Virus record (IMG/VR): IMGVR_UViG_3300019487_000093
Coordinates: 1-24,956 of that record
Reading direction: 5' to 3' (one strand)
DNA length: 24,956 bases
Source of the DNA: a virus
A program made the position numbers and the translations under genes. Position 1 is the first letter of the stretch. Each line of letters starts with the position of its first letter. The notes under the pieces are model-generated. The model saw nothing but the letters and a program-made list of their open reading frames with translations. It did no database searches and was not told where the DNA came from. Shown piece after piece: positions 1,284 to 18,099 of the stretch.

Positions 1284-1528
1284 TCCCAATCCTCAACCGG
1301 CTCATTTTTAAATAACTCTTTAATTTTTTTATAATAACATTCATCAATTACAATACCTATAGCATTCCCTTCTTTTTTACATTTCCTGCAAATCCACTGA
1401 AATTTAGTAGGGTATGAAACTAAATTTACAGGGGTGAATAATTTATCATGTGAGCATTCTTTTTTAAGTTTTCTTCTCATTTCCCATTCCTCAAATTTAA
1501 TCTTAATTATTTTTGCAGGCGGTTCCAT
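1280..1528 (-). CDS. Small phage protein with possible C-H/C-C zinc site
   Basis: 82 aa. Residues C25-S-H27 and C47-R-K-C50 (in WICRKCKKEG) are spaced like the two halves of a small zinc-binding knuckle, with the conserved-looking run VNLVSYPTKFQW between them. The N-terminus is basic and helical (KFEEWEMRRKLKKE). Its stop overlaps the ATG of the next gene and its first 22 bases overlap the end of the previous one, so it is translationally coupled on both sides. The Shine-Dalgarno is weak (GGA), which supports expression by coupling. A nucleic-acid or protein-binding role would suit the zinc knuckle, but the function is unknown. Confidence 0.75.
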   Translation of the reverse strand: MEPPAKIIKIKFEEWEMRRKLKKECSHDKLFTPVNLVSYPTKFQWICRKCKKEGNAIGIVIDECYYKKIKELFKNEPVEDWE

Positions 1529-1713
1529 TCTAAAATTTCCATAGGGATAAACTCTTTGTTCCTATTTCTCTTTCGTGTTTTTGTAAGTTTAGTAGACTTT
1601 TCATTCATGTGCTTAAATAATTTATAAAGATTACCAACTTCACAAAATAAAAATACGGTTACCAATAAATTGATCAAAATCATTAGTGTTAAAATCAATA
1701 ACCAATAGATCAC
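1507..1713 (-). CDS. Small single-span membrane protein
   Basis: 68 aa with a GTG start. The first ~26 residues (MIYWLLILTLMILINLLVTV and on) form a strongly hydrophobic segment, a single transmembrane helix or uncleaved signal anchor. A positively charged tail rich in Lys/Arg/Asn/Thr follows (TKTRKRNRNK), which by the positive-inside rule would face the cytoplasm. The GTG overlaps the TGA of the upstream reading frame as GTGA, with GGAG about 10 bases before it. Its 3' end overlaps the next gene by 22 bases. Small membrane proteins are common in phage early regions (superinfection exclusion, membrane stress), but nothing here shows which role applies. No family recognised. Confidence 0.6.
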   Translation of the reverse strand: MIYWLLILTLMILINLLVTVFLFCEVGNLYKLFKHMNEKSTKLTKTRKRNRNKEFIPMEILEWNRLQK

Positions 1714-2018
1714 TTTTCGTTCTCCACCGGCTCGTAGGTTGCGGCGAATATATCCGCACTACAATAAAATTGATTGCCGCATTCGTCGGTTAAAATATAA
1801 TCTCCATCCTCGATCTTGTTGCCTCTAAACAAATACAAATCATATAAGCAATTTGGTGGTGGATCTTCTTCAACTTTTTTTGGATCTTAAGGCCATGCGC
1901 CAAAGAGATGAATAATGTGTTCACACAATCGGTTTATTTGCAAGTTGGTGTGCGCCCTTGTTTCCAATAGCAATTCACGAAAATTGTTCAGGTTTTTCTC
2001 CATTGCTGTTCCGTCCAT
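1710..2018 (-). pseudogene. Phage ORF interrupted by one in-frame TAA
   Basis: An ATG at 2016-2018, preceded by AAAGGGGA at good spacing and only 11 bases after the nuclease gene, opens a 43-aa frame ending at a TAA at 1887-1889 (sequence ...HLFGAWP-stop). The same frame then continues for 58 codons without any ATG to a TGA at 1710-1712. That second part looks like real coding sequence: a DPKKVEEDPPPN linker, then a compact unit with DGDYILTDECGNQFYC and FAATYEPVE. Its stop overlaps the GTG of the next gene in the operon's usual style. A single C-to-T change turning CAA (Gln) into TAA would explain the break. Alternatives are a genuine 43-aa protein plus a remnant, stop-codon readthrough, or a sequencing error. 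Function unknown. Confidence 0.6.
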
Positions 2019-2029
2019 AGTTTTCCCCT

Positions 2030-3031
2030 TTATTTTTCCAAAAGTCTTACGGATGTTACGTAGTAGGATTTTCTGATAAAACTCATATGTTTTTCGGGCT
2101 GGAGTTTTCGGGAAACCTTAAACTGCCCGCAAATGAATTCATTAGAACCAGAGCGGGCGGCCTCTTCCTTAATAACGTCGCAAGCTTTTTCATATCGATC
2201 ATGGGATATTTTAAATTCCTCCTTGGCTAGGATCGCATCTAACAACCGCTCATTATTGACTTTCGGAAGATCCCTTTTTTCTTCGCCCAGGCATATTTTC
2301 CGAAAGGTGCAATCGTCACAGTATTGATCGTTCATGATTTTTGACGGAACTGAATCGCTCGCCACCGCGGCGTTAATCCGTTCGACTCGTTTAATCATCG
2401 AATCACAAAAATCATAATCCAAGACCGTGGGAATATATTTACGGAGACCCGTAACCTTATTTTTTAAGCACCAAAGACCAGCCGGGGACGAAGCCAAATA
2501 AAGATAGCTTTGAATCTGACCGTAATAGGCTTGAAGATACGGGCGGCGGTTTTCCTTGAAATCAAGATCCGAAGTAATTGTGTCCCAGATATGGGGGGAC
2601 ATGGTTTTCACTTCTAACGGGTAAACTTTCCCGATATCCGAGATCCCAGGAATTAAAATCAAGGCATCGACATGGCCCGTTATTTGAAGGTTCTTATCGT
2701 GAAAGTCTTGCTGTTGCCCTACGAGAGACCAGCCGTATCGATTGCAATCTTCAAGTACTTCCTTAAGTATTGCCGGCTCGTGTAAGGAGCCCTCGTCAAA
2801 GATGGCTTGTAGCCGCCAGTCATGTAACTCTCTTTTTTGCCAGGCGGTGCGGTGATAAAATCCGTAGGCTTCGCAAGGATGGCCTATGGTTGAGGAACGG
2901 TTGGTATGGCAGGGATAAATTCTAATCTTAGAGCGTAACCGCTCTATAGAGGCTTCCTGCAATTTCTGGCAGATCTCTTGTACTGCCAGTAGATCGTCCC
3001 CTTTTTGAACGTGTAGTAAAGGTGAAGGCAT
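2030..3031 (-). CDS. PD-(D/E)XK nuclease, Cas4/RecB-like with Fe-S cysteines
   Basis: 333 aa, a DNA exonuclease-type protein of the PD-(D/E)XK superfamily. Visible motifs in order: C53 in GHPCEAYGFY; E85 in GSLHEP (motif I acidic residue); D122 in ITGHVDALI; E140-V-K142 in PLEVKTM (the catalytic E-x-K); Q172-x3-Y176 in QIQSYLYL, the QxxxY motif of RecB/Cas4 nucleases; and C238-x2-C241-x5-C247 in YCDDCTFRKIC. One cysteine in the N-terminal part plus a C-terminal trio is the known 4Fe-4S arrangement of Cas4 and AddB. A strong GGGAGGA site precedes the ATG. It follows the RecT-like gene by 14 bases, so the pair very probably acts in recombination by making 3' single strands for the annealing protein. 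It is not next to cas genes, so it is not a CRISPR adaptation gene. Confidence 0.85.
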   Translation of the reverse strand: MPSPLLHVQKGDDLLAVQEICQKLQEASIERLRSKIRIYPCHTNRSSTIGHPCEAYGFYHRTAWQKRELHDWRLQAIFDEGSLHEPAILKEVLEDCNRYGWSLVGQQQDFHDKNLQITGHVDALILIPGISDIGKVYPLEVKTMSPHIWDTITSDLDFKENRRPYLQAYYGQIQSYLYLASSPAGLWCLKNKVTGLRKYIPTVLDYDFCDSMIKRVERINAAVASDSVPSKIMNDQYCDDCTFRKICLGEEKRDLPKVNNERLLDAILAKEEFKISHDRYEKACDVIKEEAARSGSNEFICGQFKVSRKLQPEKHMSFIRKSYYVTSVRLLEK

Positions 3032-3045
3032 CGGTCTATCCTCCC

Positions 3046-3966
3046 TTAGGCTGATTTTACTTTCTTGGCGGTCGATTTAGATAAAAACTCTTGGCAATAA
3101 GCTACGGCACTCTTTAATTTCGAAACGTCCGTCATTCCAGCAATATGGTGAAACTCCGTACTTTCCTTCATGGCCTTTGAGGCCAATACGTCCAGACTGG
3201 TTTCTGGTTTATGAAATCTGTGGATCTCATTTAGAAGGCGCTGGAACTCAACCCGGAGCGGCATAGCTTCTGTGAATAGCATGGCGGCTATTTGGGATGG
3301 TGCAGGACTAGGCCGCTCCTTAGGTTCTTCAATTACTTTCTCTAAGATCTCATCCTTAACTTCTGGCAAGGGGAGAGGTTCTTTATAGATTGGGAGAGTC
3401 TCTTCATTAACATCTTGTGAATCATCGAGTTCAATTGGCGCTTCAGTTGTTTCATCTGGGCTAGAGCCAAGTTCTGGAACCGGGAAGGAAAATATTAAAG
3501 CCTGCCGCAAAGCCTTCTCCGATAATGCCAACTCGGGATAGGTTACATGGTGGGACGAACTGGGTTTGTAATAGCTGGAAAATAGGGCTTCATATTCGAT
3601 TGGGAACTTGCGGTCTTTTCGATAAACGGCCGCGGTCACAGAAAAGAGTTTGCCGCGCCGCTCCGTATTAAAGGCCCCATCTTGATCCTGATAGAGTTTC
3701 TTAAAGGGCGAGAAACCCTGATAAATGCCCTTGTAATCTCTCTCGGCTATCTGAAGCATGCCCTTTAAACTGATATAGGGCTTATATCCGTTACTGGTTT
3801 TAATGAGATAAATCTCACCATTAAACGGATTTAGCCTCGCTCCCATGGCGATATGTAGGAAGACGGCATATTCCGCCTCCGGCGCTTCCTTCGCGATAAT
3901 ATTCTTAGCCGCCTTCTGAACATCGGGAACGCTCAAATCAATTCGTACCAGTGCTAGAGTTGTCAT
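3046..3966 (-). CDS. RecT/Bet-family single-strand DNA annealing protein
   Basis: 306 aa. Residues ~30-75 carry the family signature: AVFLHIAMGARLNPFNGEIYLI, then GYKPYISLKGMLQIAERD. Residues ~140-175 have YPELALSEKALRQALIFSFP, the helical motif seen before the end of the Bet/RecT core. The core is followed by an acidic, Pro-rich linker (~175-222) and a helical C-terminal part (~222-306), a tail commonly used to bind SSB or partners. Such proteins coat and anneal complementary single strands during phage recombination and replication. Its ATG overlaps the TGA of the HTH gene (ATGA), with an AAAGGA site inside that gene, and the partner nuclease is directly downstream. RecT and Bet subfamilies are hard to separate by eye. 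Confidence 0.85.
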   Translation of the reverse strand: MTTLALVRIDLSVPDVQKAAKNIIAKEAPEAEYAVFLHIAMGARLNPFNGEIYLIKTSNGYKPYISLKGMLQIAERDYKGIYQGFSPFKKLYQDQDGAFNTERRGKLFSVTAAVYRKDRKFPIEYEALFSSYYKPSSSHHVTYPELALSEKALRQALIFSFPVPELGSSPDETTEAPIELDDSQDVNEETLPIYKEPLPLPEVKDEILEKVIEEPKERPSPAPSQIAAMLFTEAMPLRVEFQRLLNEIHRFHKPETSLDVLASKAMKESTEFHHIAGMTDVSKLKSAVAYCQEFLSKSTAKKVKSA

Positions 3967-4199: not shown

Positions 4200-4228
4200 A
4201 CGATTTCTCCAACTGGTTAGACAATTGA

Positions 4229-4255
4229 ATTATATGCCTTGAAACAATAATTCAA
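4229..4255 (-). promoter_or_regulatory. Leftward promoter of the early operon
   Basis: On the minus strand, TTGAAT (4255-4250) and a perfect TATAAT (4234-4229) are separated by 15 bases, or 16 if CTTGAA is taken as the -35. Spacing is slightly short but the -10 is consensus. It sits 30 bases upstream of the GTG of the HTH gene in an A+T-rich intergenic region, the right place to drive the recombination and early genes. Confidence 0.6.
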
Positions 4256-4256
4256 G
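4238..4256. promoter_or_regulatory. Palindromic operator candidate (CTTGAA-N7-TTCAAG)
   Basis: A perfect 6-bp inverted repeat, CTTGAA at 4238-4243 and TTCAAG at 4251-4256, with a 7-base spacer. The centres of its arms are about one helical turn or slightly more apart, typical for a dimeric HTH repressor. It covers the -35 element and spacer of the leftward promoter. The + strand copy TTGAAA (4239-4244), followed by A+T-rich sequence near 4262-4270, could be a weak rightward promoter under the same control. Binding by the adjacent XRE protein is inference. Confidence 0.5.
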
Positions 4257-4319
4257 CTAAAAATTAAATATTTCTTTTTTTCTTGACTCGGGGCCTTTAA
4301 AAAGAGATGAGGGGTTTTA

Positions 4320-4679
4320 ATGTCAAAAGATAGGTTTAAGAAATTCCGTGTGAAAAAGGCTCTCGAACGGAGCCTCCATGCCGAAAACTTGGAAGCCTGG
4401 TACAATCGCCACAGAGCCAAGGAATGGTATCAAACGCCAAGAATGAAAGCCGCCAGAAGGTGGCTTGCTGAAGTAAAACGTCGTCCCCCTCAATCCTCCA
4501 CGCGCCGCCCACCGATAGATGCAAGTACGTGCCATGGCGGCCCCACTGCGGAATACCAAGAAAAGCCGCGTACCCTGCACACTCAGGGGAAGGCGAATAC
4601 GCAGGGATCAGGAGTCTTCCCCGGTTCGGAGAATGAGACGGGAACGAACGACCAAGACAGAAGACCACTTTTTACGTAG
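4320..4679 (+). CDS. Small basic hypothetical protein in the divergent region
   Basis: 119 aa from an ATG with a GAGGGG site 5-6 bases upstream. The first half is very basic and helical (KDRFKKFRVKKALERSLHAE, then MKAARRWLAEVKRR). The second half is low-complexity and polar (STRRPPIDAST, TEYQEK-like and GSENETGTNDQDRR), so probably disordered. Several other frames on both strands are also open here, which lowers confidence. I prefer this one because it starts next to the divergent control region with a good ribosome site. No domain is recognised; a nucleic-acid-binding role would fit the charge but is a guess. If it is not a gene, 4200-4852 is a long non-coding control region. Confidence 0.45.
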   Translation: MSKDRFKKFRVKKALERSLHAENLEAWYNRHRAKEWYQTPRMKAARRWLAEVKRRPPQSSTRRPPIDASTCHGGPTAEYQEKPRTLHTQGKANTQGSGVFPGSENETGTNDQDRRPLFT

Positions 4680-4718
4680 CAGCGGATTACTAAGGCCAAA
4701 AACCTTAATGATTCAAAG

Positions 4719-4738
4719 TGTGGATAACTTGTGGGCAA
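4719..4738 (-). promoter_or_regulatory. DnaA-box pair (one perfect, one degenerate)
   Basis: TGTGGATAA at 4719-4727 is the exact complement of the consensus DnaA box TTATCCACA. TGTGGGCAA at 4730-4738 is a second copy in the same orientation, with two mismatches, 11 bases further on. Both lie in the non-coding gap between a + strand ORF and a convergent minus-strand gene. A perfect 9-mer is expected by chance about 0.2 times in a window this long, so the evidence is suggestive, not conclusive. Confidence 0.35.
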
Positions 4739-4785
4739 AAGTCCAATGGCTTACTACGCTTCAAACCATTCCCCTTTCCCGTCTT

Positions 4786-4843
4786 CCTTTGCGTAGCGTA
4801 GCGTCCCCAATTAAAAGGGGCGCAGAGCGAAGCGTAGCAAAGG
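4786..4843. terminator. Large imperfect hairpin, possible bidirectional terminator
   Basis: Outer arms CCTTTGC (4786-4792) and GCAAAGG (4837-4843) and inner arms GCGtCCCC (4801-4808) and GGGGCGC (4817-4823) flank an 8-base A+T-rich loop. In between are short direct repeats of the type GTAGC/AGCG. The element lies in the 173-base gap between the ends of two convergent genes, where a two-way terminator is expected. No clean U-tract follows on either side, although + strand T's occur about 12 bases later, so a rho-independent mechanism is unproven. Confidence 0.4.
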
Positions 4844-4852
4844 TTCTTGGTA

Positions 4853-16177: not shown

Positions 16178-16485
16178 GCGGGTTTAAAAAGATTCTAACC
16201 CAAGATTATCGAATCAATCGAGTTCAGGAAAATATTGACGAAACCTTTCGTCGATTGACAGGGAACGAGTTTTTAACTGGTCTACTATTTGAAAACGTCA
16301 GACTGACAGCGGGAAAAAGTAATTATATTCGCCACAATTTGGGACGGGAAGCTAATTGGATTGTGACGAGAAAAAAAGAAATGTCATCGGATATCTGGGA
16401 GATTACCGAAACCAATCGCAGTATTAAGAATAATCTCATTTTAGATTGCGATTGGAGCGTTACGGTTAATCTTTACCTTTTTTAG
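16168..16485 (+). CDS. Small head/tail-region protein with a CTG start
   Basis: 105 aa if it starts at the CTG at 16168; a TTG at 16255 would give only 76 aa. The frame is open from 16153 with no ATG, GTG or TTG before that TTG, and AAGGAG (16155-16160) lies 7 bases before the CTG. The N-terminus then reads ISGFKKILTQDYRINRVQEN, like the start of recalled phage neck-region proteins, and continues TFRRLTGNEFLTGLL, then NYIRHNLGREANWIVTRK. The C-terminus has alternating strands (NNLILDCDWSVTVNLYLF). It overlaps the end of the adaptor gene. Role unknown, probably a small neck or tail-assembly component. Confidence 0.65.
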   Translation: MAISGFKKILTQDYRINRVQENIDETFRRLTGNEFLTGLLFENVRLTAGKSNYIRHNLGREANWIVTRKKEMSSDIWEITETNRSIKNNLILDCDWSVTVNLYLF

Positions 16486-16494
16486 GGGGCAAAC

Positions 16495-18099
16495 ATGACC
16501 ACACCGTTAATGAATCTAGATCTGCCGGTCGTTAGTGTTACAGCCGGTCCTCTTTGGGCAACCATGCTTAACGCCGCTCAGAATCTTATCGATTCTCATG
16601 ATCATACTTCAGGAAAAGGCAGCAAGGTCCCAACGGCTGGCATTTTGATCAATGCAAATTTAGAGATGAATAGCTTTGATCTGACTGAGATTCATGCACT
16701 CGCCTTGGATAATTTATCTGCAACGTTGGGCGCGTCACTGGTTGGTCGTCTTTATCAAGTGAATAAAGAGCTTTATTACAACGATGGGAACGGCACAGCG
16801 GTCAAGATGACCAATGCCGGCGCTGTAAATGTTTCAGGTTCAAATGGAATCGGGGGGGACTACGGCGGCGGAAATCCAGCCTCATTAAACTTTGTTGAAG
16901 CAACTTCGACATATGAGTTCTATGAGAATGCATCAAGTGTAAACAGGGGGAATATATTATTTAGAGGCCTTGATATGAGTGGACGAGCGGCGATCGCGTC
17001 AACCGCTCTTGCTGGCAATTTAACCATTACATCTACGGATGATACTTTCATCGTCAATGTCGATACGTCTGCGGTTCGGACAATTACTTTGCCAGATCCT
17101 ACCTTAGCAAAAAGATTGTTTATCATTAAAGATGTAACCGGAAGCGCAGATGTTAACGGAATTGTTATCGCTAGATTTGGATCGGAACAAATAGATGGGG
17201 TTGCAGCTAACTATACTTTTAGCGTTCCATTCGGTTCTCTAATTATTAGTTCGAACGGAACAAATTGGTTTGTCGTTAATCGAAATGAAAACTATCAACG
17301 CGGAACAGAAGTCAAGAATCTTGGTTTAACTGCAACGGTCGGCAGCAATGCTCTTACGTTTGCTTTAAAACAGAGAAACGGTTCAGATCCGACAACCGGA
17401 CAAGGCATGGTTTGCATTCCTTTTAGACATGCAACGCTTACAAACGGACAGACAAATATTAGATATGTAAAATCAGCTTTATCGATCACGATTCCTTCTG
17501 GGGCTACTCTTGGATTCAGCAGCGCGTATGACGACTTTGTGTATCTTTATGCTATAGATAACGCTGGAACGGTTGAATTGGCGGTTTCTGCTTCAGCTCT
17601 CTGGGCTGCGGAAAATGTGACCGCCGGAACCGTTTCTACAACTCTTCTGGACACGGCTTCTGACGATGCTGGGAGAATTTACTCAGCAACACAAAGATCA
17701 AATGTGCCTTGCAGAATGATCGGTGCGTGTTTTATTGCCGCCTCTACTCCTGGAACTTGGGCGAGTTCTCCATCATGGGTATTCGTTGGTGATCGTGTCC
17801 ATGAATCTTTTAACAGACGAACAGCCATGGTATCCGGTGTCAGTAATATCAACGCCCATCACGATCAAATTTATATCAAAGCTTTGGACGCGACGACCTA
17901 TAATATCCAGCTTCCAATTGCTCAGCATGGATTTAAATTCACCGTTAAAAGAAGTTCTGGGAGTGCTTCAAATAATATAACGATAGTTCGGGCTGGATCA
18001 GAAAATATTGATGAGGCAGCAGCGAGCTATGTTATGTCAACTTCCTTGCAGTCAGCCACTTTTTTCTGTGACGGAACTAATTGGTTCGTTATTTCTTAA
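16495..18099 (+). CDS. Fibre- or spike-like virion protein with internal duplication
   Basis: 534 aa, with TAGGGGGCAAAC upstream. The N-terminus has MLNAAQNLIDSHDHTSGKG, in which the HDH at 35-37 matches the HDHSG-type motif seen near the start of many tail fibres. The rest is beta-rich and Thr/Ser/Asn-heavy. Residues ~184-262 and ~458-534 are related: both have a block with RTITLPDP or YNIQLPIA, then a segment with GSEQIDG or GSENIDE, and end with a NGTNWFVV or DGTNWFVI motif. Such C-terminal repeats usually form trimeric receptor-binding tips. No peptidase, lyase or chaperone motif was recognised. It sits between neck genes and the nozzle-like gene. Confidence 0.65.
   Translation: MTTPLMNLDLPVVSVTAGPLWATMLNAAQNLIDSHDHTSGKGSKVPTAGILINANLEMNSFDLTEIHALALDNLSATLGASLVGRLYQVNKELYYNDGNGTAVKMTNAGAVNVSGSNGIGGDYGGGNPASLNFVEATSTYEFYENASSVNRGNILFRGLDMSGRAAIASTALAGNLTITSTDDTFIVNVDTSAVRTITLPDPTLAKRLFIIKDVTGSADVNGIVIARFGSEQIDGVAANYTFSVPFGSLIISSNGTNWFVVNRNENYQRGTEVKNLGLTATVGSNALTFALKQRNGSDPTTGQGMVCIPFRHATLTNGQTNIRYVKSALSITIPSGATLGFSSAYDDFVYLYAIDNAGTVELAVSASALWAAENVTAGTVSTTLLDTASDDAGRIYSATQRSNVPCRMIGACFIAASTPGTWASSPSWVFVGDRVHESFNRRTAMVSGVSNINAHHDQIYIKALDATTYNIQLPIAQHGFKFTVKRSSGSASNNITIVRAGSENIDEAAASYVMSTSLQSATFFCDGTNWFVIS

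Follow-up and report, generated by a model that had tools for sequence, protein, structure and literature searches.

The window analysed here is the whole of virus record IMGVR_UViG_3300019487_000093, a stretch of 24,956 bases. Matches to PHROGs on its plus strand identify an endolysin, a small and a large terminase, a portal protein and a major head protein, and a leftward operon encodes a Cas4-like exonuclease and a Bet/RecT-like annealing protein, likewise recognised through PHROGs. On the basis of these structural, lysis and operon genes the record can be assigned to a tailed phage. A megablast search of the phage collection found no close relative of the phage as a whole. The locus under study lies in the leftward early operon, between the exonuclease gene and a small gene that follows it. 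The features are listed below with the evidence for each.

2030..3031, minus strand: Cas4-like exonuclease gene, the upstream gene, intact (PHROG 1990, E = 4.8e-25)
2025..2030, minus strand: Shine-Dalgarno (SD) sequence AAGGGG, 6 nt 5' of the ATG at 2018 and abutting the end of the exonuclease gene
1887..2018, minus strand: first piece, a 43-codon open reading frame (ORF) from ATG 2018 to TAA, with no significant relatives (sequence and translation)
1887..1889, minus strand: in-frame TAA (sequence and translation)
1875..1881, minus strand: run of seven A's just past the TAA, with no evidence of slippage (sequence, fold and start scores)
1710..1886, minus strand: second piece, 58 in-frame codons followed by a TGA (1710-1712), without a supported standard start (sequence, codon and SD scores)
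1722..1817, minus strand: PGDYG-type module (KIEDGDYILTDECGNQFYCSADIFAATYEPVE; PHROG 419/4502/1810 and a profile of 81 relatives)
1507..1713, minus strand: next gene, 68 aa, N-terminus hydrophobic by eye; its GTG start overlaps the TGA of the second piece and has its own SD (-6.4)

The initial annotation had described this locus as a split frame, and its layout was confirmed: an ATG at 2018, 43 codons, the TAA, 58 further codons and a TGA that overlaps the GTG at 1713. The run of seven A's downstream of the stop is also present at 1875-1881. Both flanking genes, the exonuclease and the GTG-started gene, appear unbroken, as had been stated. The proposal that the second piece ends with an overlap style shared by its neighbours holds in part: four-base ATGA overlaps occur at 438-441 and 3963-3966, but the other junctions of the operon differ. 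Similarly, a change of CAA to TAA is a possible origin of the stop, but it is one option among several, since seven of the nine one-base neighbours of TAA are sense codons.

The openness of the frame past the stop is weak evidence when taken alone, because shuffled sequences also stay open and other genes have equally long continuations. Shuffling the mononucleotides of the 174 nt 5000 times left 57 fully open sequences, and at least 58 open codons follow the stop in the same frame in 5 of the 32 genes of the window, the interrupted gene included. The other four run on in this way because a following gene lies in the same frame and starts at an ATG of its own (stop-to-start pairs 16485/16495, 7084/7097 and 14827/14840, and on the minus strand 789/785). 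At 16255-18099 of the window, a TTG-started ORF of 76 codons ends with TAG, and an ATG-started gene of 534 codons begins 9 bases later in the same frame.

It is the content of the second piece, namely its PHROG matches and its codon score, that places it beyond chance. The codon score was +15.1; stretches of 58 codons read in frame from window genes have a median of 9.0. The codons lying between the TAA and the module had a frame-0 score of 7.8, and the corresponding median for in-frame stretches of 22 codons is 3.6. The earlier description of protein-like sequence after the stop is therefore upheld by relatives and by a coding-like codon score, and, as judged from its sequence, the second piece is real coding-derived sequence. 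The first piece scored -4.1, which is under the 5th percentile (-0.5) of 43-codon stretches of window genes, but the codon measure is weak at such lengths because the end of the intact exonuclease likewise scores poorly. At the three codon positions the first piece has GC contents of 0.47/0.33/0.49, similar to the 0.48/0.35/0.43 of the early genes.

The second piece matched PHROG 419 (E = 4.4e-7), PHROG 4502 (E = 1.2e-6) and PHROG 1810 (E = 1.1e-5). The matched residues, 24-57 for the first two and 24-56 for the third, mark a 34-residue module with the pattern GDY/W-I ... G ... Y/F-x-C ... I-F-x-x-T-Y-E-P-V. These matches and a score of 40.2 bits against a profile of 81 relatives place the second piece in this module family. 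With Pfam PF14083 (PGDYG), the second piece scored 19.4 bits and the joined halves 17.7 bits, under the cut-off of 27. A literature search by the name PGDYG found nothing, and PF14083 and RKKPV did not appear among the literature matches listed.

Two sets of relatives were used for comparison. Twenty-seven were read singly, comprising L002 and 26 annotated phage proteins (20 + 6) whose records were hand-picked from match listings (one of them with 252 records, each match weak alone, best E = 7e-3). In all 27, the ORF has 31 or more residues ahead of the matched stretch; here, 23 residues separate the stop from the module. The larger set consisted of 161 loci with 145 distinct ORFs, obtained from two viral-contig scans and one genome scan; each viral-contig scan contributed the best 80 of at least 600 matches, and counts from the 145 ORFs are those of a sample. 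A tight pattern for an RKKPV-type motif was found in frame before the module in 130 of the 145 distinct sampled relatives, a few of which may be chance occurrences since the motif was sought in stop-to-stop translations. The rest were made up of 8 with looser versions of the motif recognised by eye, 4 cut by contig ends and 3 that lack the motif. In the window, the motif is absent from all three minus-strand frames of 1710-2118.

The interrupted gene is therefore like the RKKPV...PGDYG small phage proteins (PHROG 419/4502/1810, PF14083) in having a module of about 34 residues near the C-terminus and in lying within a stretch of small genes, and unlike them in the missing RKKPV-type N-terminal part, the in-frame stop before the module and the Pfam score below the cut-off. 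Some of these relatives (L005, which is a MazG fusion, L010, L019 and L022) carry protein past the module, whereas here the module ends the frame.

Relatives without an in-frame RKKPV start exist, and we counted them in favour of an interruption. In L098 (2248-2640) the start YRKKPVVIEATQWF and the module lie in different frames, as in a frameshifted family member. In L059 (2410-2608), and in the same way in L057, the module tail follows an SD and start that belong to an unrelated gene (MGTLSTLDHTGDTRIQWDPENP...) and to a different frame; these two contigs are duplicates, and the SD and ATG opening the other frame were judged by eye. In L094 (2370-2590) the 34-residue module stands alone and starts at its own ATG, which shares bases with the stop codon of an unrelated ORF of 39 residues; this module is possibly a minimal form of the PGDYG family. 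The present locus is like these in that the module is intact while the N-terminal part is lost, shifted or foreign. It differs from L098 and L057/L059, which have a frame shift or another 5' part, in that its stop is in phase, and from L094 in that its module has no ATG.

The initial annotation considered the two pieces to be one split protein, a view that the homology searches do not sustain. For the first piece, searches of PHROGs, Pfam and NCBIfam gave no family at E <= 1, its best tblastn match in phages had an E of 4, and no relative carrying it was found in the viral-contig and genome scans. Nor did any homologue turn up in which a single open frame contains both halves. Searching with the halves joined, as had been suggested, did not improve the score against the profile of 81 relatives (38.9 bits, compared with 40.2 for the second piece alone) or against Pfam. 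When the upstream part was shuffled, 477 of 500 sequences scored as well or better in the joined profile test, and 188 of 200 shuffles of the pre-module part aligned as well with the pre-module segments of 162 relatives. A tblastn match to L027/L029 spanned query residues 31-101, over the stop; in residues 31-68 it was equalled by 189 of 200 shuffles, and these two were rejected as a bridge between the halves, both being plain RKKP-type proteins. It had been proposed that homologues ending at the same TAA, with no relatives of the codons downstream, would refute a split gene. The downstream codons do have relatives, but none of these convincingly crosses the position of the stop. A second copy of the site was not found in a scan that may omit near-identical records.

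The structure model of the joined chain was poor (mean pLDDT 62), with values of about 43-57 in the first half and 85-89 in the module, and the strands modelled in the first half derive from the alignment and were not trusted. The intact relative L055 (2432-2662) folds well (pLDDT 92). This model had no match in the PDB at E 0.001 or better (best 1.8), and sequence searches of the PDB gave best E values of 0.2 and 0.55. In BFVD, 24 matches among the best 50 listed reached E 0.001, mostly uncharacterised or 'PGDYG' phage proteins, and one BFVD match is annotated QueE. A predicted protein of 43 aa (A0A4D6BB77) matches the module region of L055 with an E of 0.015 and a TM score of 0.81 by target. 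The decoration protein of phage L (6e3c) came up as a weak hit in three comparisons; the profile E of 1.1 and the Foldseek E of 2.8 are both non-significant, as is the VIA-align result (Z 3.5, rmsd 3.0 over 56 residues), near which unrelated chains also score.

The gene order in related records bears on the status of the block. Two viral scans limited by pattern confirmed relatives of the exonuclease in L003 and L186 alone; the exonuclease also matches 4 phage records at 25-31% identity. The exonuclease of L003 is 51% identical to that of the window and is followed directly by a relative of the gene at 789-1289 (55% identity over 159 columns; PHROG 2164, E = 7.9e-27 for the window gene). Neither piece had a match in the L003 record or in that of the more distant relative L186, each a weak negative with so short a query. 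The block is accessory, since the syntenic L003 lacks it at this position.

The start at ATG 2018 is well placed for translation. Its anti-SD duplex energy was -7.8, compared with a median of -5.8 for 29 gene starts, which left out three weaker-called ORFs (7365, 9695 and 16255), and a background median of -2.4. Between the stop and the module there is no ATG or GTG in frame, and the only standard starts are two TTGs at 1838 (+2.2) and 1832 (+0.6), both without an SD. The locus is thus not a single uninterrupted ORF with a ribosome-binding site, as the TAA at 1887-1889 closes the frame and no supported standard start follows. SD-like stretches lie 5' of an ATC at 1814 (-5.8, the 10th percentile of background) and of an ATT at 1796 (-8.0); the ATT is inside the module and its use would remove the module start. 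The next gene has its own site (-6.4), and therefore need not rely on translation through the module.

We favour, with a probability somewhat better than even, an accessory early phage gene with a terminal PGDYG-type module that has been interrupted by a nonsense change in a once-open gene. Ribosomes would start at ATG 2018 with its good SD and stop at the TAA, which would yield a 43-residue peptide and leave the module in frame behind the stop, without a usable standard start. For want of such a start, the module is probably not made, or made only in traces, and is presumably silent now. The nonsense change is favoured because the two pieces share a phase, coding-like codons follow directly on the stop, and the whole is neatly packed between the exonuclease and the next gene; both halves would then probably have been one gene. 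It is rather unlikely that the two were never one protein and that recombination instead joined the end of a gene with a PGDYG module to an unrelated small gene; their common phase would then be a one-in-three accident. Such a join would agree with the orphan first piece, the shuffle-level alignment of the pre-module part, the RKKPV-type motif missing from the three minus-strand frames, the foreign 5' part before the module tail in L057/L059 and the unrelated short ORF before the module in L094. On the other hand, the coding-like codons between stop and module and the neat packing are what one gene would show. Two working genes, the 43-residue peptide and a small stand-alone module protein made from a weak or non-standard start, would be in keeping with the stand-alone modules in L094 and A0A4D6BB77 and with the SD-like stretches before ATC 1814 and ATT 1796. 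We regard this arrangement as improbable: no ATG or GTG precedes the module in frame, both TTGs are without an SD, the value for the ATC goes no further than the 10th percentile of background, translation very rarely begins at ATC or ATT, and a start at the ATT would leave out the beginning of the module.

There is a similarly small chance that the TAA is a sequencing or assembly error, or a minority variant in the consensus, and that the real population has an open gene. The record is a single environmental virus with no second copy of the site found, but the neighbouring genes appear intact and assembled short reads seldom give a consensus with substitution errors. An altered genetic code had been excluded in the initial annotation, and we agree, since TAA ends 18 of the 31 other genes and the code is therefore standard. 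A long product would arise beside the short one if ribosomes were programmed to read through the TAA or slipped frame at the A run. This was suggested by the in-phase run into an intact module and the seven A's nearby, but it gained no positive evidence and we consider it very improbable. In the main frame the stop comes before the A run. Upstream starts in other frames are unsupported (ATG 1896, -0.9; GTG 1924, +0.3), the RNA of 1810-1900 is locally unstructured (z = +1.67; 194 of 200 shuffled sequences gave an equal or better fold), no Rfam match reached the gathering score, and the window contains no tRNA gene. The A run is ordinary, as there are 9 runs of at least seven A's on both strands of the window together. 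A slip at this run, or a change in its length, was rejected as the cause because the starts in the needed frames have no SD and the RNA is unstructured. We give hardly any credence to one start with two products, that is, an abundant 43-residue peptide and low-level passage of the TAA to a form with the PGDYG module; if true, such readthrough would make this phage an unusual example of passage through UAA. An ordinary broken or patchwork gene is preferred to a new mechanism of expression because the module is recognisable, widespread and without a usable start.

An interrupted gene of this kind would be one more case of decay or mosaic exchange among the small accessory genes of phage early operons. 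The PGDYG tail would then be a module able to lose, swap or outlive its N-terminal part (3 of the 145 sampled relatives lack the usual in-frame start), and viewing it as a module may help the annotation of a very common phage protein.

Elsewhere in the window, about 650 bases at 4200-4852 have no convincing gene, while the early operon is otherwise packed. An ORF at 4320-4679 on the plus strand had no PHROG match at E <= 0.01. The same stretch contains an inverted repeat, 4751-4777 and 4814-4840, whose arms are 70% complementary.
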